64,000 nt of DNA from Liolophura sinensis (lineage: Eukaryota; Mollusca; Polyplacophora; Chitonida; Chitonidae), in the NCBI RefSeq assembly GCF_032854445.1, contig NC_088303.1:3047501-3111500 (forward strand), given 5' to 3'. Shown in pieces: positions 4,001 through 58,784 of this stretch; within the stretch, counting starts at the first letter, position 1; every line of letters starts with the position of its first letter. A program made the position numbers and the translations under genes. The notes beneath the pieces are model-generated. The model was given only the letters and a program-made list of their open reading frames with translations, searched no databases and was not told the origin of the DNA.

Positions 4001-7000
4001 TTTTTGCACCCCAAGAAAAAAGCTGAGAAGCTTTTTAGCACTTGTATACGTTAGGCCACATTCAAATCTCCATATTAAGAAATAAAAATAGTGTGCAATG
4101 CACTTAAAACTACTCAGCCTTGAGCACATGTACAATGTAACGAATAGATCCAACTTCACGGTGGCTTGTAATAATATGTAGATCATTTCCAGTGGCATTT
4201 AGAAAGTTTTCAAACATAAAGCAGGAGAATACCTTTTAAGGATAACAACTTTTTTATTTATTTCAGACTGTCGTTGCAGCCTCTTATATAAAATTTGACT
4301 TAAATGACCCCTATGACCTTGAAGAAAGAGGTCAAGGTCACTGAAAATCAATAGTGTTCTTCCTCATGCCAAGGTGTAAGTATGGTGTAAGTTTGGAGAA
4401 CTTGCTAAATAGTTCTATAGATAGCATGTCTACAAGCCTTTCATAAAATTCAACTTGCATGACCCCAGTGACCTAAAAGAAAAAGGTTAAGGTCGCTGAT
4501 AATCAATAATGTTCTTCCTCATGCCAGGGTATGTAAGTATGGTGTAAGTTTGATGAATTTGGGCTAAACAGTTCTAGAGATAGAGTGTTTAAAAGGATAT
4601 GGAGGGCCTCCGTGGCCAAGATGGTTAGCACGCCAGTGCAGCACATTGACCCAAGAGCCTCTCACCAGTTTGGTCACTAAGAGTTCAAGTCAAGCTCATG
4701 CTGGCTTCCTCTCCAGCAGTGCGTGGGAAGGTCTGTCAGCAACCTGTTGATGGTCGTGGGTTTCTTCTGGGCTCTGATTATTTTCCTTCCACTACAATGC
4801 TGGCCCCAGTCGAATAAATGAAATATTCTTGAGTATGGCGTAAAACACCAAACAAATAATCCAATCAAAACAAGGATAAGGACAGAGGGACGAATACTGG
4901 CCACGGGGTAAATATCAAGCATTTCATGTATCCTTTACCCTCATCCAAGTTATAAAATGCCAGAAAGTTGCTTTTCAACCAGCTTTTTTGAGCACGACAT
5001 TATTTCCAGCCAACGTTCTCATAGCAATTATTTATCATCATAGTGTTGAAAATCTCAGATCTCATATCCATCTGCCTCAGTACACCAGGCACAGGATACA
5101 GTACAAATCTCAGATCTCATGCCCATCTGCCTCAGTACACCAGGCACAGGATACAGTACAAATCTCAGATCTTATGCCCATCTGCCTCAGTCCACCATGC
5201 ACAGGATAGAGTACAAATCTCAGATCTCATGCCCATCTGCCTCAGTCCACCAGGCACAGGATAGAGTACAAATCTCAGATCTCATACCCATCTGCTTCAG
5301 TCCACCAGGCACAGGATACAGTACAAATCTCAGATCTCATGCCCATCTGCCTCAGTACACCAGGCACAGGATAGAGTACAAATCTCAGATCTCATACCCA
5401 TCTGCCTCAGTACACCATGCAGAGGACAGAGTACAAATCTCAGATCTCATGCCCATCTGCTTCAGTCCACCAGGCACAGGATAGAGTACAAATCTCAGAT
5501 CTCATGCCCATCTGCCTCAGTCCACCAGGCACAGGATGGAGTACAAATCTCAGATCTCATACCCATCTGCCTCAGTACACCAGGCACAGGATAGAGTACA
5601 AATCTCAGGTCTCATGCCCATCTGCCTCAGTACACCAGACACAGGATGGAGTACAAATCTCAGATCTCATGCCCATCTGCCTCAGTACACCAGGCACAGG
5701 ATAGAGTACAAATCTCAGATCTCATGCCCATCTGCCTCAGTCCACCAGGCACAGGATGGAGTACAAATCTCAGATCTCATGCCCATCTGCCTCAGTACAC
5801 CAGGCACAGGATGGAGTACAAATCTCAGATCTCATGCCCATCTGCCTCAGTACACCATGCACAGGATAGAGTACAAATCTCACATTACCTGTATTGTGAT
5901 GTTTGCCCAAACAAGGCACTGTTGGTGACCCCCGAGTCCGGGCTGACTCCACACTTCTCCAGCAGAGGTAACAGCACTCCTGGGAACATTAGCACACTGT
6001 CTTCCAGCTGATGGCAGGAAAATAAACCATCTTAATATGATTAACATATGATCACCAAAGTTGTGTAATGCAGACAACTTCAGCCTCGAAAACTGGAAAA
6101 AAATTTATCTGATTTGTTTGCTTGAATGTCATATATATTATACTATTATGTATTTATATTATTCTACATTTTACGACCTTTATAACAGATTCTGAATGGT
6201 AGCACTTGCACAGAGGAGGCTGATAGTTAGTGAAAGGTAAGTATTTGGGATGCTTGTAACAACAAAACTTTGACTGAATTAGACCCATTGATTATTGGCC
6301 CTAAATCACTTGTATAGCCTCTTAGGTATCAATATCCCTACCCTGAATAATTCTTGGACACTTCGTGCAATATCAACCTTAAAGGATTAACCTCAGAATT
6401 ATGGCAGAGTTTACCATTTCTGTAGCTTTAGCAATATCCTGCCCATTCTGACCGGCCAGCTGGAACATGGCCAAGGGAACGGACAAGGCAAAGTTAGGCA
6501 GCTGGGACAGATTACGATGAGCCTGGTAATGAAAAGGAAATATCTCTCAGGTAATTATTCTTATTTAATACAGATTAACTCAAAGTCACATGAACCTAGA
6601 TTTAATAATTTTTGAAATTACTGAAAGGCTATAAATAATTTACCAGTGAAACCAAACGATGTGCTGGGGGCCCCTAAGGAACGGAATAAATTATGAGCAA
6701 AATTTTGCAGAGAAATTCTGTAAATGAACAGATGTTTGTTAGAAAACAACTTACCTCCCATTCTTCAAACATGCGGACTAAAAAAGTGAATTGTTGAGAT
6801 TTTAAGGCGTAGAAATCAATCATGAGTAAGACACACAGGGGATCTCCTTCAGGATCCAAACTGGAAGTGAGAAAACTGAATATAGTCGAAACAAATAAAT
6901 ATCTTCACATGAAAGATTTCATTTTGGAGACACCAACTTGATTTTGTTTTATGAGTGAGCCAACAGTGAAAAATCCAAATATATTTTTTTAGGATTTTCC

Positions 7001-10000
7001 TGTTTTTTAAGGCTTTCCAATCTCATATAAAATATGTCTTTAACAGGAACAATTGCTGGCAATTGACAAAGATAGTGTAGAGACCGGATCCATTCATTTT
7101 TTTTTCTAGCATTGGCGATTAACCTGTACTTAGGAAATATTTCACTTTTCAGATCGCTGTGAACTATAATAGTTTCAGGAACCTATGAAGAGCTCAGTGA
7201 AAGTTTTCCGGCTGTGCTCTACAAACTATACTATCCGCTATACTATGATTGCCGTTTAATCATTCAATTAACAATACTGCCTTACATATGTGGATAAAAC
7301 ACCTGTGGCAATGAAGCACCAGTGCCTGACTTGTAAGCAGACTTTCCATTTATTACTGACCACGTCACAGCTAGTATCAATGAGGAAGGGGAGGAGTGGG
7401 GGGGGGAGGGCCACAAAGTTTTGAGGTTACCTCAAAAGAGATAGTTTGTAACATATTACCAGGGGTATTTCAAGAAGAAGATAGAGGTGTATGTACATTC
7501 AGGTATAGATGTCATTAAATTAGATAAACAGGGCTTTGTATAACACTTTTAAATGTCTTCATTCAAAGCTTTCTGGTTACGTACCAGATGACCATGAGAG
7601 AATATCAAACTCTGAAGAGTACATATTGCTGTGAAAGGCATCGCTAATTTGACAGAAAGTGCATAAAGAATGTTCACTCAGAAAACAAAGTTTAAGTGGT
7701 TAGTTCCAACTGAAGAAAAGAAGGGCCTGATTTCTCAGTTCCCGGAAGAGACTATAAACCATGTTGATTTCATCTTTCACCTGCAGGTCTGGGACATGCA
7801 ACGGCCTGGAATCATTTCCAGACACAAGAGTAAATATATATGTCTTGTGTCCTAATAAATGTCTAAAGTAAAGAGAAGAACTACCAAACTGTCATGTGTA
7901 TTTACTTACCAATCAGTCTAAAGGTAAGCTCTAAAGTTACGAATGATGCAGTGTATGACATGGTATAAGTAATACATGAACAACTACTTCAACACCTGTC
8001 CCTTAGAAACCTCGTTCAGTTCATTGCGACTGCATTTAAACTGAAGCATCTTGACAAACTCTTCAGCTGAACATTAGTGAGACAAAATATGCAAAGTGTA
8101 TATAGGTATATGGACTGCAAAAATCAAGACTGCATGCAGAACAACTGCTACACAGGTACTGACTTTAGATATTATTACTAAATAATAAACTTACAACAAA
8201 AAAGCTGATCAAAGTTATTATGGAAATTCACAGCTTGTATGTGCTCAGTTGATAATATATTTTTATGCAGCTTTCCCAAATTCAACCTTTAAAAACCTGG
8301 CAGTCAGTCTCGTCTCTCCCTGTCTTGCCGAGCTGGTGAGGCTCACTGAGGTGTGACGGAGTGGTGGACACCTGTGACTGATTGACTCCTAATCTTCTAT
8401 TCCCCACGGTGAGTGTACAACTAATGATAAGCCCTCATAATTCATCATAGTATACATATTCTGAAAATACATCTAAAATTATTGAGAAGATACAGAATAA
8501 AGATGTAAAATTACTAACCTTAGCAAAAGCTTACAGAACTCCAGAGCTGTTCGGTAACATCCCTTCTGGCCCACAAAACACAAGTGTCTAAATAATGCTA
8601 TGTAGAATGCCCTGAAACAGATGGAAAGGTTGACCAATTTTACACTGAAATGCTTGTATGTGAAACACAGCAATATTGTTACAGTGCCATAATAAGTGCT
8701 GCCACGTCTAACAATTAAACCGAACAAGCCCAAGCATAGACTAAAAATGTAAGCTAGCCAGCCAGCCAGCCATCCAGCCAGCAACAAATCACTGTGACTA
8801 CCATTCTCCCTTCAGTTAAATAGGTGTGTATTAAATCTACATAAATCAATATATAAGAAACTAAATTCTCAGTTACTTGAATTAATCACACTGGTAGTTT
8901 TCCGAAGTTCGTACCTGTTTTCTGGTCGTCTGTAGCTTAGACGACAGGTTCCCTGGGTTAGGCTAAACAATGGATGAAATGCGACCTCAAAACTATACAA
9001 AGCTCGTTCTGTGGAAACATAAAAACAATGGATGAAATGCGATCTCAAAACTATACAAAGCTCGTTCTGTGGAAACATAAAAACAATGGATGAAATGCGA
9101 TCTCAAAACTATACAAAGCTCGTTCTGTGGAAACATAAAAACAATACATGAAATGCGACCTCAAAACTATACAAAGCTCGTTCTGTGGAAACATTAAAAC
9201 AATGGATGAAATGCGATCTCAAAACTATACAAAGCTCGTTCTGTGGAAACATAAAAACAATACATGAAATGCGACCTCAAAACTATACAAAGCTCGTTCT
9301 GTGGAAACACAAAAACAATGGATGAAATGCGATCTCAAAACTATACAAAGCTCGTTCTGTGGAAACATAAAAACAATGGATGAAATGCGACCTCAAAACT
9401 ATACAAAGCTCGTTCTGTGGAAACATAAAAACAATGGATGAAATGCGACCTCAAAACTATACAAAGCTCGTTCTGTGGAAACATAAAAACAATGGATGAA
9501 ATGCGATCTCAAAACTATACAAAGCTCGTTCTGTGGAAACATAAAAACAATGGATGAAATGTGATCTCAAAACTATACAAAGCTCGTTCTGTGGAAACAT
9601 AAAAACAATGGATAAAATGCGCCCTCAAAACTATTCAAAGTTCGCTCTATGGAATCACAAAAACAATTTATTTTTTAAATCTGAATCAGGTTTAACACCA
9701 CACTCAATTTTATTCCACTTGTACATCTGTAATCCAATTTATGAGCAGGGGGAATTATACTGCCTGGAAGAAACCATCAGATTTTGGTCAAGAGCTGACA
9801 AACTTTCCTACATGTAATGCACACTATTATCCACTTGCTGGAAGGCAAGTGATTTCCAACAAACTTCACATACAGACACTTTATACATTGCTTGTTAACA
9901 AAAAAAATAATCCCTTGCCCTACCTGCACTCTATTTATGAAGGATTATATCCTAGGGGAGAAATGTAAGTTTTAACACGAAAAGTTCCTGCTATGTTTGG

Positions 10001-16497: not shown

Positions 16498-19400
16498 ATG
16501 TTTTCTCTTTGCGCGAGGGTGTGGCTATGTAACCATGGCAACATGCTATGGATACAGACATTTCCAGTGTTGACCACATCCCAACAAGCAATCAGTCTGT
16601 CAACATCCAGAGCACTTGGTGCGAAAGTGAAGATGACAAGAATGCTACAAAAGATGATGGATAAAGGAAACAAGTAGGTTGTATTTAAATGTGAAATGTG
16701 CCCTTCTCTTCTTACATTACATTCTTGATAAAAATTTGATAAAAATGTTGAACTGTCTTCTGAAGATTTCCCCTAAGGATAGAAGTTCACATTTTTAGAT
16801 TAATAATTAAAAATATGTTAAAACTAATACAGGATTTTAAGCAGAAATTTGTTATTTGACTTATTAATGTTTATCTGCTTGACATTTCAGAAGAAAATGG
16901 CAAGGACTAACAGCGGTGAGTAATATTCTGTGTTTATTCTCACTAAGAGGGTTAAATGTTTATAGCTGCATAAAGCGTAAACATTTTAGAGAGCTTAAAT
17001 AAAATACGTCATATTTATACACATAATACAACAAATTAATTTGCTGGATTCTGTACAGTTTGACTTAAATGTAGCCTTCCGTAAAATTCCTATGTGTGTG
17101 ATCTGTTTGTCCGTCAATCAAATCATCCTACCATTGAACAGTACTCCACAGTACTCAGTAGTACTTCACAGTACTCCACAGTACCTCACAGTACTTCTTC
17201 AGTACTTCACAGTACTCCATAGTACTCCCCAGTACTTCTCCGTACTTCCTCAGTACTTCACAGTACTCCCTTAGTACTTCCTCAGTACTCCACAGTACTT
17301 CACAGTACTCCACAGTACTTCCTCAGGACTTCCCAGTACTTCCTCAGTACTCCACAGTACTTCACAGTACTTCCTCAGTACTCAACAGTACTTCCTGAGG
17401 ACTCCCCAGTACTTCCTCAGGACTTCCCAGTACTTCCTCAGGACTCCCCAGTACTTCCTCAGGACTCCCCAGTACTTCCTCAGGACCTCCCACTACTTCA
17501 TCGACTCGGAAATGCAGATCAGGAAAGTGGAGACTCTGACTCACAATGTATGTACATCAAATATTCTTGAGTATGACATCAAGCGTCAATCAGTGAGTCA
17601 GTTTGACACCCACTGCTCCTATTTTCAGAACATCATGGCAAATAATCAAGACACAGATGGGCAGAGGAAGAGCAAGATCACTGAGGGGCAAAGACGTCGA
17701 GCCGTTCAGGTGGGAAAGGTGCTCCATGATTATGTCACAAGCATGATGAATTCCGGAGAGCTTCACCCAAAACTGGTTGAGTGTTCTGTGGAGGTGTCTA
17801 AGGTATGTTCTCACCTGTACAGGACAGGTGTTGTATGATTACATCATCAGTATTATCAACTCTGGATAGTTTCACTCAAAACTGGTTGAGTGTTCTGTGG
17901 AGGTGTCTAAGGTACGTTCTCACCTGTAGAGGACAGGTGTTGTATGATTACATCATCAGTATTATTAACTCTGGAGAGTTTCACTCATAACTGGTTGAGT
18001 GTTCTGTGGAGGTGTCTAAGGTACGTTCTCACCTGTACAGGACAGGTGTTGTATGATTACATCATCAGTATTATTAACTCTGGAGAGTTTCACTCAAAAC
18101 TGGCTGAGTGTTCTGTGGAGGTGTCTAAGGTACGTTCTCACCTGTACAGGACAGGTGTTGTATGATTACATCATCAGTATTATCAACTCTGGAGAGTTTC
18201 ACTCAAAACTGGTTGAGTGTTCTGTGGAGGTGTCTAAGGTACATTCTCACCTGTACAGGACAGGTGTTGTATGATTACATCATCAGTATTATCAACTGTG
18301 GAGAGTTTCACTCAAAACTGGTTGAGTGTTCTGTGGAGGTGTCTAAGGTATGTTCTCACCTGTACAGGACAGGTGTTGTATGATTACATCATCAGTATTA
18401 TCAACTGTGGAGAGTTTCACCCAAAACTGGTTGAGTGTTCTGTGGAGGTGTCTAAGGTACATTCTCACCTGTACAGGACAGGTGTTGTATGATTACATCA
18501 TCAGTATTATCAACTCTGGAGAGTTTCACTCAAAACTGGTTGAGTGTTCTGTGGAGGTGTCTAAGGTACGTTCTCACCTGTAGAGGACAGGTGTTGTATG
18601 ATTACATCATCAGTATTATCAACTCTGGATAGTTTCACTCAAAACTGGTTGAGTGTTCTGTGGAGGTGTCTAAGGTACGTTCTCACCTGTAGAGGACAGG
18701 TGTTGTATGATTACATCATCAGTATTATTAACTCTGGAGAGTTTCACTCATAACTGGTTGAGTGTTCTGTGGAGGTGTCTAAGGTACGTTCTCACCTGTA
18801 CAGGACAGGTGTTGTATGATTACATCATCAGTATTATTAACTCTGGATAGTTTCACTCAGAACTGGCTGAGTGTTCTGTGGAGGTGTCTAAGGTACATTC
18901 TCACCTGTACAGGACAGGTGTTGTATGATTGCATCATCAGTATAATTAACTCTGGATAGTTTCACTCAGAACTGGCTGAGTGTTCTGTGGAGGTGTCTAA
19001 GGTACATTCTCACCTGTAGAGGACAGATGTTGTATGATTACATCATCGGTATTATTAACTCTGGATAGTTTCACTCAGAACTGGCTGAGTGTTCTGTGGA
19101 GGTGTCTAAGGTACATTCTCACCTGTACAGGAGAGATGTTGTATGATTACATCATCAGTATTATTAACTCTGGATAGTTTCACTCAGAACTGGCTGAGTG
19201 TTCTGTGGAGGTGTCTAAGGTACGTTCTCACCTGTAGAGGACAGGTGTTGTATGATTACATCATCAGTATTATCAACTGTGGAGAGTTTCACTCAAAACT
19301 GGTTGAGTGTTCTGTGGAGGTGTCTAAGGTACGTTCTCACCTGTACAGGACAGGTGTTGTATGATTACATCATCAGTATTATTAACTCTGGATAGTTTCA

Positions 19401-21374
19401 CTCAAAACTGGTTGAGTGTTCTGTGGAGGTGTCTAAGGTACGTTCTCACCTGTAGAGGACAGGTGTTGTATGATTACATCATCAGTATTATCAACTCTGG
19501 ATAGTTTCACTCAAAACTGGTTGAGTGTTCTGTGGAGGTGTCTAAGGTACGTTCTCACCTGTAGAGGACAGGTGTTGTATGATTACATCATCAGTATTAT
19601 TAACTCTGGAGAGTTTCACTCAAAACTGGTTGAGTGTTCTGTGGAGGTGTCTAAGGTACGTTCTCACCTGTAGAGGACAGGTGTTGTATGATTACATCAT
19701 CAGTATTATTAACTCTGGATAGTTTCACTCAGAACTGGCTGAGTGTTCTGTGGAGGTGTCTAAGGTATATTCTCACCTGTAGAGGACAGATGTTGTATGA
19801 TTACATCATCAGTATTATTAACTCTGGATAGTTTCACTCAGAACTGGCTGAGTGTTCTGTGGAGGTGTCTAAGGTACATTCTCACCTGTAGAGGACAGAT
19901 GTTGTATGATTACATCATCAGTATTATTAACTCTGGATAGTTTCACTCAGAACTGGCTGAGTGTTCTGTGGAGGTGTCTAAGGGACATGTCTTGTTCTAT
20001 TACATCATCAGCATGATGAACCCAGTGTTTGTGTCTGAAAGCTTATCCCTACTCCCTCAATTTTCAGGTCGAGGTGGTGGCAGATTTTAGTGCTCTCAAT
20101 GTATTCTGGTTAGCCTCAGGAACAAAGACAGATGTGGAAACACAGAACCTACTTGACAGCAATTCTGGCAAACTCAGGTACAGTTGTGTTTAATTTGGTG
20201 ATTTTGGGTTTAAAACTTCAGACATATTGTATGATATGGAGATAAAAACTTGTGTAAAATATTCAAAATGACCTACAAGTGATGTTCTGAAAGAGGTGTT
20301 AATTGTCGTCTGTATTGTAAGACCCAGGATCATTGATATGAAATGATAATGATTTTGATTTGATTCAGCTGAACATATCTGACTTGGAGGATTAAGATTA
20401 CAGAAACCAAAAGCCCTTTGTGGTTTAAAAGTGTTGACTTGCAATTTTTCCCAAGGCTAGCAGACAGAATTGTAATTACAACAGTCATGTGTATATGAAA
20501 AATGGTGAGAAATTGTTGTATGTTGTATTTTTCTTAAATAACACTTAATGTTAACACTTAATTACATACACAGGCCCCTGTTTGTCTTTTGTTTTATAGA
20601 ACTATGTTGATCAGCTTTAGAGCAATTGGTCGTGTCCCAAAGGTTAACTTTGTGAAGGACATGTCAGAAGCTAGGTCTAAACAGGTGGAGGAAATGCTTA
20701 AAATAGCAGACATGGGTCCAGAAGAGGACAGAAATGAGGAGGACCAAGTGTTTACCAATAGCAACGTAACTATGCATCATGTGACAAGATCCACCCAATC
20801 AAGACTGAAGGCTGATTTCCATCGTCTGTCAGAGTTTTCAAATACTCAAGGCATATGGCTGGAATCTGGAGCTGCCCATCTACAGAATCCACCATTAGGA
20901 GAAGTCATAATCTCTGAGGGTGGGGATAAGGGCCAAAATGTTGACTCCATATTGTCAGACAGTAATAAAAAGTATTCAGCAGAGAATAAGCCAGCTGAAC
21001 ATTTGGATGAACCCACGAGGTACCATCCATCACCTGGAACTGCTCACTTCAGGAGCGATATTTATGGCCTGAAACGAGAAGAATTGGTGAGCAAAATTAT
21101 TATGTTGAAAAGGAAGGCAAAGGATAGAAGTCTGAACATTGTAATAACTGATGAGGGTAAGACTGCAGGAATTCCTCCTATTCCAACGCTTCTTGGTAGC
21201 AGTAAAGCCCACAAAGCTGGAAAAAGAGTGCTAAAACAGAAAGATTTTTACACACTCGTGGACGCGGCAAAGGATGATGAAAGGTGGTTACAGGACATAT
21301 GTGGGGATGGTGATTTCGAGAACTTTGAAGAAATGCAGGAAGATTCTTTCTCAGACAAAGACGACCACAAATAG
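16498..21374 (+). CDS. RBFA: Mitochondrial ribosome-binding factor A (RBFA), 5 coding exons, 419 aa
   Basis: Coding exons: 16498-16673, 16891-16915, 17629-17802, 20068-20177, 20600-21374; joined 1260 nt, one open frame, GT-AG introns. RBFA binds the maturing small ribosomal subunit through a KH-like domain; the animal form acts in mitochondria on 12S rRNA. Seen: an N-terminus (residues 1-45) with Arg/Lys, Ser/Thr and few acidic residues, typical of a mitochondrial presequence; KRKWQ (59-63), comparable to the KKVWY segment of vertebrate RBFA; helix VLHDYVTSMMNSGELHPKL then VECSVEVSKVEVVADFSALN (about 98-135), the KH-like core; ISFRAIGRVPKVNFVKD (about 166-182) and VEEMLKIADMGPEED (about 188-202), matching the family's VPPIVFVQD and LLAVADFGP blocks; a long C-terminal extension with IYGLKREELVSKI. 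The tail is acidic (DGDFENFEEMQED). Overall identity to vertebrate RBFA is low, so the call rests on block order and spacing. A tiny 25-nt exon 2 is inferred from splice sites and frame. An AG at 16479 just before the ATG may end a 5' noncoding exon. Intron 3 holds a large exon-derived array. Confidence 0.85.
17140..17505. repeat. GTACT-rich simple array in RBFA intron 2
   Basis: Irregular repetition of CAGTACTTC/CAGTACTCCA with a 16-bp period in the last part (CAGTACTTCCTCAGGAC). It lies just upstream of RBFA exon 3. The self-complementary GTAC core recurs at every step. Confidence 0.9.
17803..20030 (+). repeat. 109-bp array made from the end of RBFA exon 3 plus its donor (20 units)
   Basis: Twenty 109-bp units fill most of RBFA intron 3, starting exactly at the exon 3 donor. 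Each unit is a 25-bp spacer (GTACGTTCTCACCTGTACAG then GACAG) followed by 84 nt starting GTGTTGTATGATTACATCAT and ending GAGGTGTCTAAG|GT. In the exon 3 frame these 84 nt encode VLYDYIISIINSGEFHSKLV plus ECSVEVSK, a close match to RBFA residues 98-125. Seven units (five consecutive at 18046-18565, plus those near 19248-19331 and 19575-19658) are free of stops; thirteen carry TAG (GGATAG) or TAA (TCATAA). The last unit has lost the donor (AAGGGAC). Confidence 0.95.
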
Positions 21375-24105: not shown

Positions 24106-25046
24106 ATGCACACACACATGGTGCGGAGATGGTGGGGAATACTGCGCAATCATCTCTATCTCCATGTACGAACATTTACCCTTGTTACAGAACACAAACC
24201 CTTGTTTCCATTGTTCAACAAACCCAGCTCGAAACCTCCTGCGAGAATTGAACGCTGGATCTTAAAGCTTCAAGGATACTCGTACAACGTAACATGACAA
24301 TCCAGCTGATTTTCTGTCCAGACACCCTGTTCAGTCACCAGACGCTCCAAGCTGTGAAGAAAAGATGGCTGAGGAACACATAAACTTTCTAACGCAACAT
24401 GCAGTTTCGAAAGCCCTAACACTCGCAGAAATTCAAGACGTCACGCAGGCCGATCCACTATTGTGAACTGTAATGGACTTAGTTAAAGGCAGCAAATGGA
24501 AATCTGCCTACAAACCAAATGTTAACGCAAAGCTTGACAGCTCTACAGCAAGACAGCTTCAGTCTTTTGCTACAGTGCACACTGAGTTATCAGTAAGCTC
24601 TGACGGAAATATTCTCCTGTTTGGTTCCCGCATTGTGATACCAGCCTGCCTTCAACAGCGAGTGTGCGGCCTCGCCCACGTTGGACATCAAGGTATTGTC
24701 AAAACGAAGAAACTGCTTCGTCAAAAGGTTTGGTTCCCTGGTATCGATAAACTCGTAGAGACAACCATTCATAACTGTATCCCGGGCCAGGCCGTTAACC
24801 CCTGAAAACTCTTCCCGTCGAGAACCGCTCAAGATGACTGCGCTCCCGCAAGCACCATGGGAAAACGTCTGTGCAGATTTCGTTGGACCATTACCCTCTG
24901 GAGACTACTTACTGATTGTCTATGACGAATACTCCCGTCACCCTGAAGTAGAAAAGGTGTCTTGCACCTCTGCGCGATCCACCATTCCCGCCTTTGACAA
25001 GATATTTGCCACACATGGTATACCATCAGTTTTGAAAACTATCAAA
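24106..25046 (+). pseudogene. Decayed Ty3/gypsy pol fragment (RNase H end, integrase zinc finger, integrase core start)
   Basis: Three translated blocks in different frames, in the gypsy pol order. About 24118-24300 matches the RNase H C-terminal part (LVTEHKPLFPLF, PARIERWILKLQGYSY). About 24473-24800 holds the integrase N-terminal zinc-binding region (HVGHQGIVKTKKLL, then a CxxC-like site reading CIPG, so the last Cys is lost). About 24834-25045 begins the integrase catalytic core (ENVCADFVGPLPSGDYLLIV, then DEYSRHPEVE). Frameshifts and a TGA near 24466 break the frame, and the core stops before the later acidic residues. Reverse transcriptase, gag and LTRs are not seen. It merges at its 3' end into a tandem array. 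Confidence 0.85.
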
Positions 25047-25049
25047 AAC

Positions 25050-25995
25050 GATAATGTAAGGATCTCGTTATCTCAGGGGTATAAGGCCAGATTCAAGCAC
25101 ACAAACTTGGTGCGGAGATGTGTATGAGGATTTGCGATCTAATGATCTCGTTAACTCAGTGGTATAAGGCCAGATTCAAGCACACACACACGGTGCGGAG
25201 ATGTGTATGAGGATTTGCGATCTAAGGATCTCGTTATCTCAGCGGTATAAGGCCAGATTCAAGCACACACACATGTTGCTGAGGTGTGTATGAGGATTTG
25301 CGATCTAATGATCTCGTTATCTCAGTGGTATAAGGCCAGATTCAAGCACACACATGTTGCGGAGATGTGTAAGAGGATTGGCGATGTAAAGATCTCGTTA
25401 GCTCAGCAGTAAAAGGCCAGATTCAAGCACATACATGTTGCGGAGATGTGTAAGAGGATTCGCGATGTAAGGATCTTGTTCGCTCAGCGGTATTAGGCCA
25501 GATTCAAACACACACACACGGTGCTGAGATGTGTATGAGGATTTGCGATCTAATGATCTCGTTAGCTCAGCGGTATATGGCCAGATTCAAGCACACACAC
25601 ACGGTGCTGAGATGTGTATGAGGATTTGCGATCTAATGATCTCGTTAGCTCAGCGGTATATGGCCAGATTCAAGCACATACATGGCGCTGAGATGTGTAT
25701 GAGGATTCGCGATGTAAAGATCTCGTTGGCTCAGCGGTATAAGGCCAGATTCAAGCACACACACACGGTGCTGAGATGTGTTTGAGGATTTGCGATCTAA
25801 TGATCTCGTTAGCTCAGCGGTATAAGGCCAGATTCAAGCACATACATGTTGTGGAGATGTGTATGAGGATTCACGATGTAAAGATCACGTTAGCTCAGCG
25901 GTGTATGGCCAGATTCAAGCACACATACACGGTGTGGATATGTGTATGAGGATTTGGGATGTGAGGATATCGGCGGTATAAGGTCAAGCTCGCGC
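25050..25995. repeat. ~84-bp minisatellite fused to the gypsy fragment
   Basis: About 11 units with TCTCGTTAGCTCAGCGGTAT, GGCCAGATTCAAGCACACAC, GGTGCTGAGATGTGTATGAG and GATTTGCGATCTAATGA. CA-repeat length varies between units. The segment TAGCTCAGCGG fits a tRNA A-box consensus, but no full tRNA can be folded. Confidence 0.9.
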
Positions 25996-36619: not shown

Positions 36620-39600
36620 ATATCAGTGCATAATACCCGAGTAACAGTGTGTTATACCTGAGTACCAGTGTGTTATACCCGAGTACCAGTGTGTTATACC
36701 CGAGTACCTGTGCGTTATATCTGAGTACTAGTGTGTTATAGCTGAGTATTGGCGTATTATAACTGAGCAACAGTGTGTTATACCTGAGTATTAGCGTGTT
36801 GTACCTAAGTACCAGTGTGCTACTGAGTACCAGTGTGTTATACCTAAGTACCAATGTGTTATTTCTGAGTATTGGTGTGTTATAACTAAGCATCAGTGTG
36901 TTATACCTGAGTATTAGCGTGTTATACCTGAGTACCAGTGTGTTATACCCGAGTACCCCTGCGTTATACCTGAGCAACATTTTGTTATACCTGACTATTA
37001 ACGTGTTATAACCGAATACCAGTGTGTTATACCTGAGTACCAGTGTTTTATACTTGAGTGCGAGTGCGTTATATCCGAGTGCCAGTGTGTTATACCCGAG
37101 TACCAGTGTGTTATACCTGCGTATCAGTGTAATATCCCAGAGTGCCAGTGTTTTATGTCTGAGTATTAGCGTCTTATACCTGAATACCAGTGTGTTATAC
37201 CCGAGTACCCCTGCGTTATACCTGAGCAACATTTTGTTATACCTGACTATTAACGTGTTATAACCGAGTACCAGTGTGTTATACCTGAGTACCAGTGTGT
37301 TATACCTGAGTGCCAGTAGGTTATATCCGAGTGCCAGTGTGTTATACCCGAGTACCAGTGTGTTATACCTGAGTATCAGTGTAATATCCCAGAGTGCCAG
37401 TGTTTTATGTCTGAGTATTAGCGTCTTATACCTGAACAACAGTGTGTTATACCAGAATACTAGTGCGTTATACCTAAGTACCTATGTGTTATAACCGAGT
37501 ACCAGTGCGTTATACCTGAGTACCAGTGTGCTATACCTGAGTACCAGTGTGTTATACCCGAGTAGCAGTCTGTTATACCTAAATGCTAGTGTATTACAGC
37601 TGAGTATTAGCATGTTACACCTGAGTATCAGTGTGTAATACGCGAGTGCCATTGCCTTATGCCCAAGTACCATTGCCTTATACCCGAGTACTAGGGCGTT
37701 ATACCTTAGTAACAGTGTGTTGTACTTGTGTACCAGTGTGTTATACCTGAGTACTAGTGCGTTATACCTAAGTACTGGTATGCTATACCTGAGTATTGAC
37801 GTGTTATACCTAAGCAACCGTGTATTATGCCTGAGTATTAGCGTGTTATAACCGAGTACCAGTGTGTCATACCTAAGTACCAGTGTGTTTTTCCGGAGTA
37901 CCAGTGTGTTATACCCGAATACCAGTTTGTTACACCTGAATACCCGTATGATATACCGTAGTACCTGTTTGTTATAGCTGAATACAAGTGCTGTATAGCC
38001 GAGTATTAGCTGCTTATACCTGACCACCAATGGTTTATATCCGAGTACCACGAGTTATACCTGAGTACCAGTGTTATAACCGAGTACCTGAGTATTAGCG
38101 TGTTTTAATTGAGTATCAGTGTGTTATACCCGAGTACCAATGTGTTATACCCGGGTACCTGTGCGTTATACCTGAATACCAGTGTGTTATACCCGAGTAC
38201 CGATGCGTTATACCTGAGTACCAGTGAGTTATACCCGAGTACCAGTGTGTTATACCTGAGTACTACTGCGTTGTACCTGAGTACCAGTTTGTTATACCTG
38301 ATTACCAGTGTCTTATACCCGAGTACCTGTGCGTTATATCTGAGTACTAGTGTGTTATACCTGAGTATTGGCGTGTTATAACTGAGCAACAGTTTGTTGA
38401 GTATTAGCGTGTTATACCTAAGTACCAATGTGGTACTGAGTACCAGTATGTTATACCTAAGTGCCAGTGTGTTATACCTGAGTATTGGTGTGTTATAACT
38501 GAGCACCAGTGTGTTATACCTGAGTATTAGCGTGTTATACCTGAGTACCAGTGTGTTATACCCGAGTACCGCTTCTTTATACCTGAGCAACATTTTGTTA
38601 TACCCGACTATTAGCGTGTTATAACCGAGTACCAGTGTGTTATACCTGAGTACCAATGTGTTATACCTGAGTGCCTGTACTTTATATCCGAGTGCCAGTG
38701 TGTTATACCCGAGTACCAGTGTGTTATACCTGAGTATCAGTGTAATATCCCAGAGTGCCAGTGTTTTATGCCTGAGTATTAGCGTCTTATACCTGAGTAC
38801 CAGTGTGTTTTACCCGAGTACCAGTGCGTTATACCTGAACAACAGTGTGTTATACCAGAATACTAGTGCGTTATACCTGAGTACCGATGCGTTATAACCA
38901 AGTACCAGTGCGTTATACCTGGGTATCAGTGAGCTATACCTGAGTACCAGTGTATTATACCCGAGTACCAGTGTGTTATACCTAAATACTAGTGTGTTAT
39001 AACTGAGTATTAGCATGTTAACACCTGAGTATCGGTGTGTAATACGCGAGTGCCATTGCCTTATACCCAAGTACCATTGCCTTATACCCGAGTACTAGGG
39101 CGTTATACCTTAATAACAGTGTGTTATACCCAGGTACCAGTGCGTTATACCTGAGTACAAATGTGTTATACCCGAGTACCAGCGTGTTATACTTGAGTAC
39201 CAGTGTGTTATACCTGAGTACTTTGCGTTATACCTGAGTATTAGTATGCTATACCTGAGTATTGGCGTGTTATACCTAAGCAGCCGTGTGTTATGCCTGA
39301 GTATTAGCGTGTTATACCCGAGTACTAGTGTGTTATACCCGAGTACCAGTGTGTTATACCCGAGTACCAGTGTGTTATACCTGAGTATCTATGTGTTATA
39401 CCTGAGTATTAGTGGGTTATACCTGAGCACAAGTGGGTTATACCTGAGCATCATCGTGCTATACCTGAGTATCACTGTGTTATACCCGAGTACTAGTGTG
39501 TTATACTTAAGCAATAATATGTTATACCTGAGTATTGGCGTGTTATACCTGAGCAAGAGTGTGCTATACCTGAGTACCAGTGTGTTATACCTGATTACCT

Positions 39601-39880
39601 GTGTGTTATACCCGAGTATTAGCGTGTTATACTGGAGTATTAGCGTGTTATAAGTGAGTACCAGCGTGTTATACCCGAGTATTAGCGTGTTATACCTCAG
39701 CATCAGTGTATTTTACCTGAGCCCCAGTGTATTACACGTGAGCTCCAGTGTGTTATACCCGGGTATTAGGGTGTTATACCTGATCATCAGTGTGCTATAC
39801 CTGAACACCTAGCACCAGTGTGTTATACCTATGTACAAATGTGTGATACCTGAGTATCAGTGTGTTACATTTGAGATACC
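36620..39880. repeat. 3.2-kb 22-bp satellite (~145 units)
   Basis: Unit of 22 bp with consensus CTGAGTACCAGTGTGTTATA plus CC. Common variants are CCGAGTACC, GAGTATTAGCG and GAGTGCCAG. Larger blocks repeat at longer range: the run around 37020-37270 closely resembles those near 37270-37490 and 38640-38880. Three units equal 66 nt, so long open frames appear on both strands (LYLSTSVLYLS plus; VLRYNTLVLRYNT minus, up to 292 codons); these are by-products of the repeat. Confidence 0.95.
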
Positions 39881-53702: not shown

Positions 53703-56700
53703 ATGACGGAGAAAAGCAAAGACGGTGCGGAGATCGGCAATGAGAAATTGGAGATGGAGAGAGTGGAGTACAAGATGTCTAGACTGAAGATCCTGAAGAA
53801 CGTGGCTGTTGTCAGTTTCGCGTTCATGTTTCTGTTCACGGCCTTCCAGTCGATGAGCAACCTTCAGAGTAGCCTGAACAAAGAGGCGAACCTAGGAACG
53901 GGCGGACTGAGCATCCTCTACGGCGCCCTCGTCATTTCCTGTATGTTCGTTCCCACTTGGCTCATCTCCGTGCTCGGATGTAAGTGGACGATTGCCGCCT
54001 CTATGGTTTGCTACATCCTGTACATGGCCGCTCAGTTCTACGCCACATGGGGTCTCATCGCCCCTGCCTCTATCATAATTGGTCTGGGTGCTGCCCCACT
54101 CTGGTCCGCTAAGTGCACCTACCTCACCCAGACTGGAGACTGGTACGCCCAGATGACCAAGAGCGACAAGGACGACATCATCAACAGATTCTTCGGAGTT
54201 TTCTTCATGCTTTTCCAGACAAGTAAGGTTCCGGGGGTTTGTCAAATCCAACAGTTACGTAAACTCAATCAGTGAAATCTTTTGTGTGTCTGTTTGCCTT
54301 TTTTGTTACATTGCTTGTCAATTTACGACTGCGTCCTTAAATGAGATCAGAACATGAAATCCCGCTGTATATTTGGGGTAGACTGGAGAAATTTTAAAAA
54401 TTAATAGGTCTGGGAGACGAAACATATGTAATATAAAAAGACTTGCAGCAAAGATAGCAAAACCAAAGCAGGGGTGACAGTATTATAGTATTATCGTCTG
54501 GGCTTAGGTTGTGTTTGTTTTGCAGGTCAAATCTGGGGTAACTTGATTTCGTCTACGGTTCTGGCCACAAAGCCAGACGAAAACCTGACGGTGGAGTACG
54601 AGAAATGCGGAGCTAATTATTGTCCACGGACAGAACAAGGCAACAGCACCCAGCTACAGGAGCCCGACTTTAAGAAGGTGACGACCAGCAACATCATACA
54701 TCCCCAATCCCAATTACAATTCCCTCAGGAGTGTACAAGTTGTTTTCCAATCCAATTACAGTACCCTTGGGGGTGTACGGATTGTTTCCCAATCCCAATT
54801 ACAACTCCCTCAGGGGTGTAAAGGTGTTTTCGAATACCAGTTACAACTCCCACAGGAGTGTACAAGTTGTTTCCCAATCCCAATTACAACTCCCTCAGCG
54901 GTGTAAAGGTGTTTCCCATTCCCAATTACAACTTCTTGAGGATATACAAGTTGTTTCCCAATCCCAATTACAACTACCTCAGGGGTGTACAAGTTGTTTC
55001 ACAATCTCAAATACAACTCCTTCAGCTGAGTACAAATTGTTTCACAATCTCAATTACAACTTCATCCCGAGTGTACAAATTGTTTTCCAGTCCCAATCAC
55101 AACTTCCTCAGGAGTGTACAAGTTGTTTGACAATCTCAATTACAACTTCATCAGGAGTGTACAATTTTCAGTTAATTCAACCAATGGCCTGAGAAGTGAC
55201 TTTTACGCCTTGGGCCTTCCACTCTGTTTACTCTTATATGCTTTGCTGTTCTTTCGGGATAATATACTTATCTGCCATTTCGTATTATAGATTTACACGA
55301 TGCTGGGCATCTATCTGGCTTCAGCCGTAATTGCCTTCTTTGTCATTGTTATCTTTTTGGATAACATTCAACTGGACAAACACGATGAGAAGCGAGAGAA
55401 ATTCTCACCCAAACTCCTAATCGAGACTTTCCGCCATTTCTGGAGGTCCCCCGCACAGAAGCTCCTGGTCCCCTTGACTATTTACAGCGGCATAGAACAG
55501 GCCTTTGTCGGAGCAGACTACACCAAGGTACACTATGAATCCTGCTGACTCTTTATTGTCAGTATTGTATTTACAGAGAAGACATTAGGACGATTCGTGC
55601 TTGAATGTGATCATAAGTATTAAGATACGGCAGAATAAAAAGATAACCTGTGCTGTGTTGTTGGTGTTCACGTCATGATCAAATAACTGGCTATCGTAGA
55701 TACTATTATATCTGTCCTAATTTTTATAATGTTTTTGAGGCATCTTGAAGATACTAAGTCTTCTTGACAAAAATCTCATGATTTCTCTTGTTTCAGTCCT
55801 TCATCACGTGCCCGTTAGGCGTATGGAATGTGGGTTACGTGATGATCTGTTACGGAGTGGCAGACGCCATCTGCTCTCTCCTATTTGGTCGTCTCGTCCA
55901 GTACTTTGGCCACATCACCTTTTTTATTCTTGGTAAGGTGGAAATTGACCATGACAGGCAAAAGTCTTAATTCTCAAAAAGCGACGTTAAACCCCAAGCA
56001 CTCACTCACTCGAAAAGCGTTTCGTTATGCATGCACCATGTCAGAATATTCCATTTCCAAACACCTAATATCACATTTATCTCGAAAATGAGACTAAGTG
56101 TCCTTAAAATACATACAACCAAGGAATATTCATTCGATCGTTTCATAAGTCACATTGGAAATCTGTAGCCCTTCTCATAAATGTTCTTCATTGTGTAATT
56201 TTTCAGCTGCCCTGATCCACTTAGGGGTCCAGATCACTCTACTGCTATGGATCCCAGACCCAAACATGATGTTTGTCTTCTACCTGCTCGCCGCACTCTG
56301 GGGCATGGGAGACGCTGTCTGGCAGACTCAGATCAACGGTAAGTAGGCAGACTCAGGTCAACTTTATATAGGCAGAGTCAGATCAGCGGTAAAAAGGCAG
56401 TCTCAGGTCAACATTAGGTAGGAAGAGTCAGATCAGCGGTAAATAGGCAGTCTCAGGTCCATGGTAGGCAGGCAGTCAGATCAATGGTAAGTAGTCACAC
56501 TCAGATCAACTATAAGTAGTCACATTCAAATCACTGGTGGGTAGGCACTCTCAGGTCAACGATAAGTTGTCACACTCAAATCAGTGGTAGGTAGGCACTC
56601 TCAGTTCAATGGTAGGTAGGCAGTCTCAGGTCAACGGTAGGTAGGTAGGCATACTCAGATCAACGGTAGGTAGGCACTCTCATGTCAGCGGTAGGTAGGC

Positions 56701-58784
56701 AGTCACAGGTCCAAGGTAGGTAGGCAGACTCAGATCAACGGTAAGTAGGCAGATTCAAATCAACGTTATATAGGCAGAGTCAGATCAGCGGTAAATAGGT
56801 AGTCTCAGGTCAACGGTAGGAAGGCAGACAGATCAATGGTAAGTAGGCACTCTCAGGTCAACGATAAGTAGTCACACTTAAATCAATGGTAGGTAGGCAC
56901 TCTCAGGTCAACGGTAGGTAGGCACTCACAGGTCAACGATAAGTAATCACACTCAAATCAGTGGTAGGTAGGCACTCTCAGGTCAACAATAAGTAATCAC
57001 ACTCAAATCAATGGTAGGTGGGCAGTCTCGGGTCAACAGTAGGTAGGCAGTCTCAGGTCAACGGCAGGTAGGCACTCTCAGGTCAGCGGTAGGTAGCAAG
57101 TTACAGGCTAACGGTAGGTAGGCAGACTCAGATCAACGGTAAGTAGGCAGTCTCAAATCAACGGTAAGTATGCAAATTCAGATCAACGGAAAGTAAGCAC
57201 ACACGTAAATCAACGGTAAATAGTCAGGCTCAGATCAACGCTAGGTAGGCAGAGTCAGATCAGCGGTAAATAAGCAGTCACAGGTCAACGGAAGGTAGTC
57301 AGACTCAGAACATCGATTAATAGGCAGACTCAGGTCAACGGTAAGTAAACAAACTCAAATCAACGATAAGAAGACACACTCAGATCAACGCTAGGTAGGC
57401 AGAGTCAGATCAGCGGTATGTAGTCACACTCAGATCAACGGTATGTAGTCACACTCAGATCAACGGTATGTAGTCACACTCAGATCAACGGTATGTAGTC
57501 ACACTCAGATCAACGGTAAGAAAGCACACTCAGATCAACGGTAAGAAAGCACACTCAGATTAACGGTAAGAAGCCAGGCTCAGATCAACTGTAGGTAGGC
57601 AGTCTCAGGTCAACGGTCAGTAGGCAGACTCAAATCAACGTTATATAGGCAGAGTCAGATCAGCGGTAAATAGGTAGTCTCAGGTCAACGGTAGGCAGGC
57701 AGTCAGATCAATGGTAAGTAGTCACACTCAGATCAACTATAAGTAGTCACACTCAAATCAATTGTAGGTAGGCGGTCGCTCTGAGCTTAAATCCATGCAG
57801 CGTATGCTGACTTCCTTTCGGGTCGTACGTGGTAAGGTCTTCCAGCAACCTGTGGATGATCGTGGGTTTCCCGTTGGCTTTGTCCGGTTTCCTACCACCA
57901 TAGCACTGGCCACCGTCGGATATGTGAAATATTCTTGCTTTGGTGAAACAGTTTGAATCCTTAAAATGCTTTGTATGCTTGGCTCGGGTTTAGTGTTGTT
58001 TTCGCCATTATATTCACAGAAGCGAAAGGCTCAGGAGCCCCACCCAGCCACAATATACTGACGACGGCTTAGTAATGCCTCTCACGAGAAAGATTTCTGG
58101 CTTTGACGTCCTTTGTCCAACCCACGTTCCACATAAGATGTGTACTTCTTAATCATTCCTGAAATTCTGATTCAGCGATATCTGTGTTAACATTGAACAT
58201 CATCAAAGGAAATGGGGGGAGATTCATAGATATCTGTGTTAACACTGAACATCATCAAAGGAAATGGGGGAAGATTCAGAGATATCTGTGTTAACACTGA
58301 ACATCATCAAAGGAAATGGGGGAGATTCAGAGATATCTGTGTTAACATTGAACATCATCAAAGGAAATGGGGGGAGATTCAGAGATATCTGTGTTAACAT
58401 TGAACATCATCAAAGGAAATGGGGGGAGATTCAGAGATATCTGTGTTAACATTGAACACCATCAAAGGAAATGAAGGGAAAGGGAAATAAGCACAAGCCT
58501 ATATTTTTTCATGTCTATTTACCCTTCAATGCATTGATTTCCTTACACTTTCAGCCCTGTACGGCTACCTGTTTAGCAGTAGCAGCGAAGCGGCCTTCTC
58601 TAACTACCGCCTCTGGGAGTCCATCGGTTTCATCGTGGCGTTTGCCTATGCCGGGTTTCTCTGCACGCGGGTCAAGATTTTCATCTGCATGGGTGTTCTC
58701 GTCACTGGCATGCTTGGATACTTTGCCGTAGAAATTTACGAGCACAGAGGGAAGTCACATGATCTTAAACACGAGAAATCGTGA
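53703..58784 (+). CDS. UNC93A: UNC93A-like multi-pass membrane protein, 6 coding exons, 468 aa
   Basis: Coding exons: 53703-54222, 54526-54677, 55291-55527, 55797-55932, 56207-56338, 58555-58784; joined 1407 nt, one open frame, all GT-AG. The length is close to vertebrate UNC93A (about 457 aa). Seen: a charged cytosolic N-terminus, then about 11-12 hydrophobic segments of an MFS-like fold; first helix near residues 31-52 (ILKNVAVVSFAFMFLFTAFQ); LGAAPLWSAKCTYLTQ in exon 1; a hydrophilic loop in exon 2 with two N-glycosylation sequons (NLT, NST) and two Cys, probably lumenal or extracellular; exon 4 GYVMICYGVADAICSLLFG; exon 5 ends DAVWQTQIN, and exon 6 continues ALYGYLF and EAAFSNYRLWESIGF, all family signatures; a short Lys/His-rich tail. 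Known: UNC-93 proteins regulate K2P-type channels in worms, and UNC93B1 traffics Toll-like receptors; UNC93A transport function is not settled. The AG at 53685 just upstream implies a 5' noncoding exon whose position I cannot place. A polyadenylation signal lies about 200 bp after the stop. Introns 2 and 5 hold tandem arrays that begin at their donors. Confidence 0.92.
54433..54500 (+). repeat. Dispersed repeat fragment in UNC93A intron 1
   Basis: AGCAAAACCAAAGCAGGGGT then GACAGTATTATAG resembles the 5' end of the copies at 29140 and 33652. Short and diverged. Confidence 0.4.
54700..55175. repeat. 43-bp minisatellite in UNC93A intron 2
   Basis: About 11 units with CAATCCCAATTACAACTCCC and TCAGGGGTGTACAAGTTGTT. 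The array starts about 25 bp after the exon 2 donor (GTGACG at 54678). Confidence 0.92.
56339..57770 (+). repeat. ~25-bp array made from the UNC93A exon 5 end plus donor (~55 units)
   Basis: Exon 5 ends GGCAGACTCAGATCAACG|GTAAGTA. The intron then repeats this 25-bp segment: units such as GGCAGACTCAGATCAACGGT plus AAGTA, with variants GTCTCAGGTCAAC, CACACTCAAATCA and GGTAGGTA. Many units keep GTAAGT, so the intron opens with dozens of donor look-alikes. A few deleted units shift spacing. Confidence 0.95.
57771..57948 (+). mobile_element. SINE, 5' truncated, at the end of the exon 5-derived array
   Basis: GCGGTCGCTCTGAGCTTAAA, GTACGTGGTAAGGTCTTCC, GATGATCGTGGGTTTCCC and GTGAAATATTCTTGC follow the 4604 family. 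It replaces the last array unit, so it may have inserted within the array. Confidence 0.8.
58165..58475. repeat. ~52-bp minisatellite before UNC93A exon 6
   Basis: Six near-identical units with GAGATATCTGTGTTAACATT, GAACATCATCAAAGGAAATG and a G run of 3-6. It ends about 80 bp upstream of the exon 6 acceptor. Confidence 0.95.

Follow-up and report, generated by a model that had tools for sequence, protein, structure and literature searches.

A tandem array across the exon 3/intron 3 boundary of a chiton RBFA gene, probably an inert minisatellite, and arrays at other splice junctions

What are twenty near-identical copies of the end of an exon doing inside the intron that follows it? The question is raised by a gene lying in the 64,000-nucleotide stretch of Liolophura sinensis DNA analyzed here (the window), in which an earlier reading made from the letters alone (the sequence-only reading) saw a series of phase-0 pseudo-exons, with an inert by-product among the options that it offered. 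The locus is RBFA, as that reading had it: the product matches Pfam PF02033 in a profile search (E 4.3e-13) and human-type mitochondrial RBFA chains among known structures (E 3e-12 to 8e-12). Exon 4 also starts where it had been placed, at 20068, as seen in the sequence and by splice-site scoring. Intron 3 (17803-20067) is nearly all tandem array, and its surroundings are organized as follows.

17629..17802, + strand: RBFA exon 3, 58 codons with a phase 0 end, source of the repeat unit
17719..17802, + strand: final 84 nt of exon 3, the part that was copied (register comparison with the units)
17803..19982, + strand: 20 tandem units of exactly 109 nt each (Tandem Repeats Finder and unit-by-unit cutting)
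18021..18565, + strand: units 3-7, stop-free in the exon frame
19220-19328, + strand: unit 14, stop-free in the exon frame
19547-19655, + strand: unit 17, stop-free in the exon frame
19983..20037 (end approximate), + strand: degenerate, shortened last unit, which keeps the exon-like AGCATGATGAA; the donor of unit 20 is lost
20068..20177, + strand: RBFA exon 4, with an ordinary acceptor

Tandem Repeats Finder gives a period of 109, 20.4 copies and 96% matches over 17755-19983, a start which means that the array extends into exon 3. Each unit opens with the 25 nt of the 5' end of intron 3, or a copy of them, and continues with an 84-nt copy of the end of exon 3; the units run head-to-tail and straddle the exon 3/intron 3 boundary. 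The number and length of the units and their origin from this boundary, both proposed earlier, are thus borne out, as is the division into seven stop-free units (3-7 and two later ones, which are 14 and 17) and thirteen that carry TAG or TAA. The flanking motifs had been given for every unit and are less constant: GACAG precedes the copy in 19 of the 20 units, with GAGAG in unit 13, and GTACGT follows it in only 11, the remainder having GTACAT (six), GTATGT (one), GTATAT (one) and, after unit 20, GGACAT. A GT donor follows 19 units, i.e., the splice signal itself is reiterated, and 18 units have both the donor and CAG, the exceptions being unit 13 (GAG) and unit 20 (donor lost). When two of the units were used to query the assembly, at least 12 matches came back, those listed all lying at the RBFA locus.

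Fourteen sites vary among the 20 units, falling at codon positions 1, 2 and 3 as 5/28, 3/28 and 2/28, and at 4/25 sites of the intron part. A codon-position pattern was looked for across these 14 sites and is absent; the array varies like non-coding DNA. The mean difference is 3.37 sites between neighboring units and 4.51 over all pairs, with a maximum of 11. Units 2 and 9 are identical, as are units 8 and 16, and mean differences are low at lags of 7-8, which together suggest the exchange of blocks inside the array. The earlier claim that the units have been homogenized finds support in this block structure, in the identical units and in the closeness of neighbors.

The exon itself seems to bear a similar mark. 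Compared with the unit consensus, the source sequence at the boundary shows 15 differences in the first 49 nt of the copied exon part and a single one in the next 60, a step in divergence whose strength was matched by none of 2000 shuffles in a change-point test, and which delimits one further feature.

17768..17827, + strand: 60 nt, 35 of them exon and 25 intron, of which 59 agree with the unit consensus (change-point test)

The step is sharp, and the final ~35 coding nt of the exon seem to have been homogenized with the array, which would make them effectively a copy of the unit. Since selection on the protein cannot explain the near-identity of the intron part, exchange between the exon end and the array appears to be the simplest reading. 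The 15 differences divide into 6, 1 and 8 over codon positions 1, 2 and 3; given how few touch position 2, part of the divergence looks as though it was made under coding constraint, and seems to have arisen either in exon 3 or in an early unit. Exon 3 and the decayed edge unit both have AGCATGATGAA, where the other units read AGTATTATTAA or close to it. This agreement between edge unit and exon indicates that the changes from AGCATGATGAA to AGTATTATTAA probably arose within the array and then spread. The edge unit at 19983-20037 lies outside this concerted evolution, but on the exon side the 3' portion of the edge seems to have been drawn into it.

Splice signals and array frequency were assessed against exons of two gene families: 15 dynein regions with AAA_6 exons (137,415 bases, 84 of 90 matches listed) and 10 myosin regions (98,010 bases, 41 of 81 matches listed), i.e., 125 exons that provided 120 donors and 121 acceptors. 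By matrices built from these sites, which are somewhat circular as the sites were chosen by consensus near the ends of profile matches, the exon 3 donor stands at percentile 77 among the sampled donors, and the unit donors at 73 in 11 units, 44-45 in seven and 77 in one, unit 20 having none. On the acceptor side, 19 units stand at percentiles 22-26 and unit 13 at 0 among the sampled acceptors; the acceptors of RBFA exons 3, 4 and 5 reach 52, 40 and 88. A rival AG lies 3-13 nt upstream of the acceptor in all 20 units, compared with 11 of the 121 sampled acceptors. Neighboring exon copies are separated by only 25 nt. When units are included singly in computed transcripts, the frame stays open for seven and is stopped for thirteen, and PF02033 is still recognized in a hypothetical RBFA that carries one extra unit. 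If the donor of one of units 1-5 (the five computed) is used, or the intron is retained, reading from the exon 3 start meets a stop after 69 codons, 11 past the 58 of the exon.

RBFA intron 3 is not the only place where tandem repeats meet a splice junction. Arrays with RBFA-like anatomy were found at unrelated genes, namely UNC93, dyneins and myosins, and another enters RBFA from the acceptor side.

56321..57773, + strand: donor-side boundary array of UNC93, the second clear one in the window, 25-nt unit, ~58 copies
17138..17500, + strand: array entering RBFA exon 2 from the acceptor side, ~21-nt units with CAG
5737-6158 and 7122-7941 of the sampled dynein region L008: boundary arrays, one acceptor-side and one donor-side

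The UNC93 unit joins the last 18 nt of the exon to 7 nt of intron carrying a GTAAGT donor. The repeat at 17138-17500 precedes and partly composes RBFA exon 2; it reads YFLRTPQ-like and is open in the exon frame for much of its length, and the acceptor taken for exon 2 here is putative. Among the sampled regions, the L008 array at 7122-7941 (65 nt of exon, 18 nt of intron, 9.9 copies) comes nearest to the anatomy seen in RBFA. The exon parts of these other arrays range from ~14 to 68 nt without a phase rule. Of 15 RBFA and UNC93 junction words, three recur at least 10 times in the window and 12 recur 0-1 times, several of the UNC93 words among these 12 being placed 1-2 bases off.

To count as recurring, a junction needed two or more additional copies of its 18-nt word within 2.5 kb. 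Such words were found at 7/120 donors, 1/121 acceptors, 1/120 mid-exon controls and 10/119 intron positions at +150 nt; the difference between donors and acceptors has a p of 0.036 and that between donors and mid-exon words a p of 0.066, with small numbers and two chosen gene families. When one further copy suffices, donors (9/120) no longer differ significantly from acceptors (4/121; p 0.25) or from mid-exon words (4/120; p 0.17). Donors are not enriched in arrays over introns in this sample (7/120 against 10/119 words at +150), and no attraction to splice sites is therefore claimed. Acceptors and exon interiors seem to be spared, and donors to be affected about as often as intron sequence. 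The lone mid-exon control with two copies falls inside the L008 donor array. The weakest of the seven donors counted, at 3912 in L015, has two further copies at irregular spacing; another L015 array (4700-4962) repeats a donor with only ~6 exon nt and lies outside the set of recurring junctions.

Several candidates were set aside. Two arrays beside exons in L012 were judged by eye and left out of the clear boundary arrays, as were the array in L025 and one in L028, which start at or just inside the intron, those in L013, L017 and L005, whose units are short or unrelated, and those on the acceptor side in L029 and, for its second array, L028, whose unit lacks the acceptor. Donors in L020 and L023 and three acceptors with a single further copy were treated as chance.

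Tandem arrays occupy ~29% of the window (18,442 of 64,000 bases in a list of 19 larger arrays); their share of the sampled dynein and myosin regions, counted somewhat differently, is 6.8% and 21.6%. A 3.2-kb minisatellite at 36633-39867 (21-nt units, ~154 copies) has long open frames on both strands. The 83-nt unit of an array at 25054-25960 holds GTTAGCTCAGCGG, which we take to be a tRNA-like string; no tRNA gene is called by ARAGORN anywhere in the 64-kb window. A retroelement integrase fragment (24467-24805) is found near this array.

Three explanations compete with that of an inert array. The repeat could be an assembly artefact, collapsed or inflated, as tandem arrays are generally error-prone; we regard this as extremely improbable, since units that differ by up to 11 sites are present and HiFi reads with a mean of 8,347 bp at 14x, according to passages of PMC11068029, can span the 2.2-kb array (the species of that assembly was renamed Liolophura sinensis in the correction PMC12441733). 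The units could also belong to a switch in which one or a few of them, or their donors, are occasionally used in splicing, with the stops lowering RBFA output through NMD. Thirteen of the 20 would bring a stop if included alone, the donors of units 1-5 or retention would do so after 69 codons, and donors at percentiles 44-77 and acceptors at 22-26 might allow such use. Nevertheless, seven units lack a stop, every unit has a rival AG that few sampled acceptors show, the variation has no coding pattern, the same anatomy recurs at unrelated genes, and comparable amphioxus arrays seem to be normally spliced (PMC3087553 and PMC3902484, in the passages that treat them). A poison-exon switch is thus unlikely.

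The stop-free units might instead be alternative coding exons that duplicate a helix-strand segment of RBFA, an idea compatible with the seven open frames and with the PF02033 match of the one-unit insertion. It is nonetheless highly improbable: a purifying pattern is absent, thirteen units are closed, and an inserted unit would presumably repeat a helix and a strand of a compact KH-like domain. Animal introns are not known to be as short as 25 nt, so adjacent units should not be usable together. A design of the units as phase-0 exons, among the possibilities raised by the sequence-only reading, is not supported, given the lack of a codon pattern, the stops, the rival AGs in 20/20 units and the lack of a phase rule elsewhere. 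Because the exon parts of the other arrays (~14 to 68 nt) follow no such rule, the 84-nt exon part of the RBFA unit and its phase 0 look like chance. Low-level use of the pseudo-exons is possible on paper, judging from their signals, and nothing found points to it.

The explanation that we favor with considerable confidence, from the anatomy and variation of the array, is that of an inert minisatellite spanning the boundary (a ‘mirage’), spliced out whole, whose exchange overwrote the exon end. The by-product option voiced earlier is thereby preferred, on the strength of the non-coding-like variation and of recurrence at unrelated genes, although the donor and acceptor percentiles (44-77 and 22-26) and the seven units that keep the frame count against it, as does the scarcity of differences from exon 3 at codon position 2. 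As its anatomy suggests, the array would go back to a tandem duplication with one end 84 nt into exon 3 and the other 25 nt into intron 3, and slippage, unequal exchange or conversion would have expanded it to 20 units and a decayed edge unit. By analogy with the amphioxus RT-PCR results, splicing from the exon's own donor at 17802 to the acceptor before 20068 would remove the whole array. Exchange may then have reached back over the donor, replacing ~35 nt at the coding end of exon 3 with what is effectively unit sequence. Mechanistically the array would be an ordinary minisatellite that happens to lie on a splice junction, and the genome holds repeated cases.

Boundary minisatellites may form a genome-wide class in chitons (7/120 donors, 1/121 acceptors), in which exchange between intron and exon rewrites the coding ends of exons and feeds amino-acid and donor-site changes into genes; we put this forward tentatively, at somewhat less than even chances. 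Mirages, so far a curiosity of lancelets, would gain a second animal group far removed from these. The features of most interest are the frequency, of which a first rough figure is supplied here, the possible difference between donors and acceptors, and the apparently overwritten exon end, a hint from RBFA that coding sequence may be replaced by intronic repeats. Such arrays would moreover offer many natural tests of how the spliceosome settles on a single donor when dozens of nearly identical ones are present, and of why donors may tolerate copying and acceptors hardly at all.

Among known systems, Dscam-like mutually exclusive exons are tandemly duplicated, and exon-like repeats lie between two constant exons there as in RBFA. 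The RBFA array departs from them in its 25-nt spacers, its stops in 13/20 units and the lack of a coding pattern. In the Rogers model, intron gain proceeds by tandem duplication of AG/GT segments (cited in passages of PMC3087553). The RBFA array has in common with it a duplicated exon segment with splice signals, but here the intron pre-existed and was filled, and no new intron is shown. No earlier account of boundary arrays in chitons or other molluscs was found in searches of open-licence papers, an absence that is provisional, and the words tandem repeat, minisatellite and satellite are absent from the chiton genome paper PMC12005716.

The closest relatives are found in amphioxus, where tandem repeats across exon-intron boundaries were named ‘mirages’ in Adh3 and also occur in globin genes. 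According to passages of PMC3087553, they contain AG/GT signals, RT-PCR suggests regular splicing, unit numbers differ in two haplotypes and edge units escape homogenization. PMC3902484 describes similar repeats of 60 and 108 bp in lancelet PGBD5 and mentions troponin C; by both papers, amphioxus mirages seem to leave splicing undisturbed. The RBFA array differs in its host, a mollusc and not a cephalochordate, in having 20 units of 109 nt, each including 84 nt of exon, which leaves 18/20 with both a GT donor and CAG, and in the coding end itself, which seems homogenized. As far as those sources describe Adh3, BflGb6, BflGb9, troponin C and PGBD5, both systems span the boundary and repeat the splice site, are homogenized inside with the edge excluded, and affect several genes per genome. 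With boundary span, reiterated signal and concerted evolution, the features examined, all in agreement, the RBFA array would belong to the mirage-type minisatellites.
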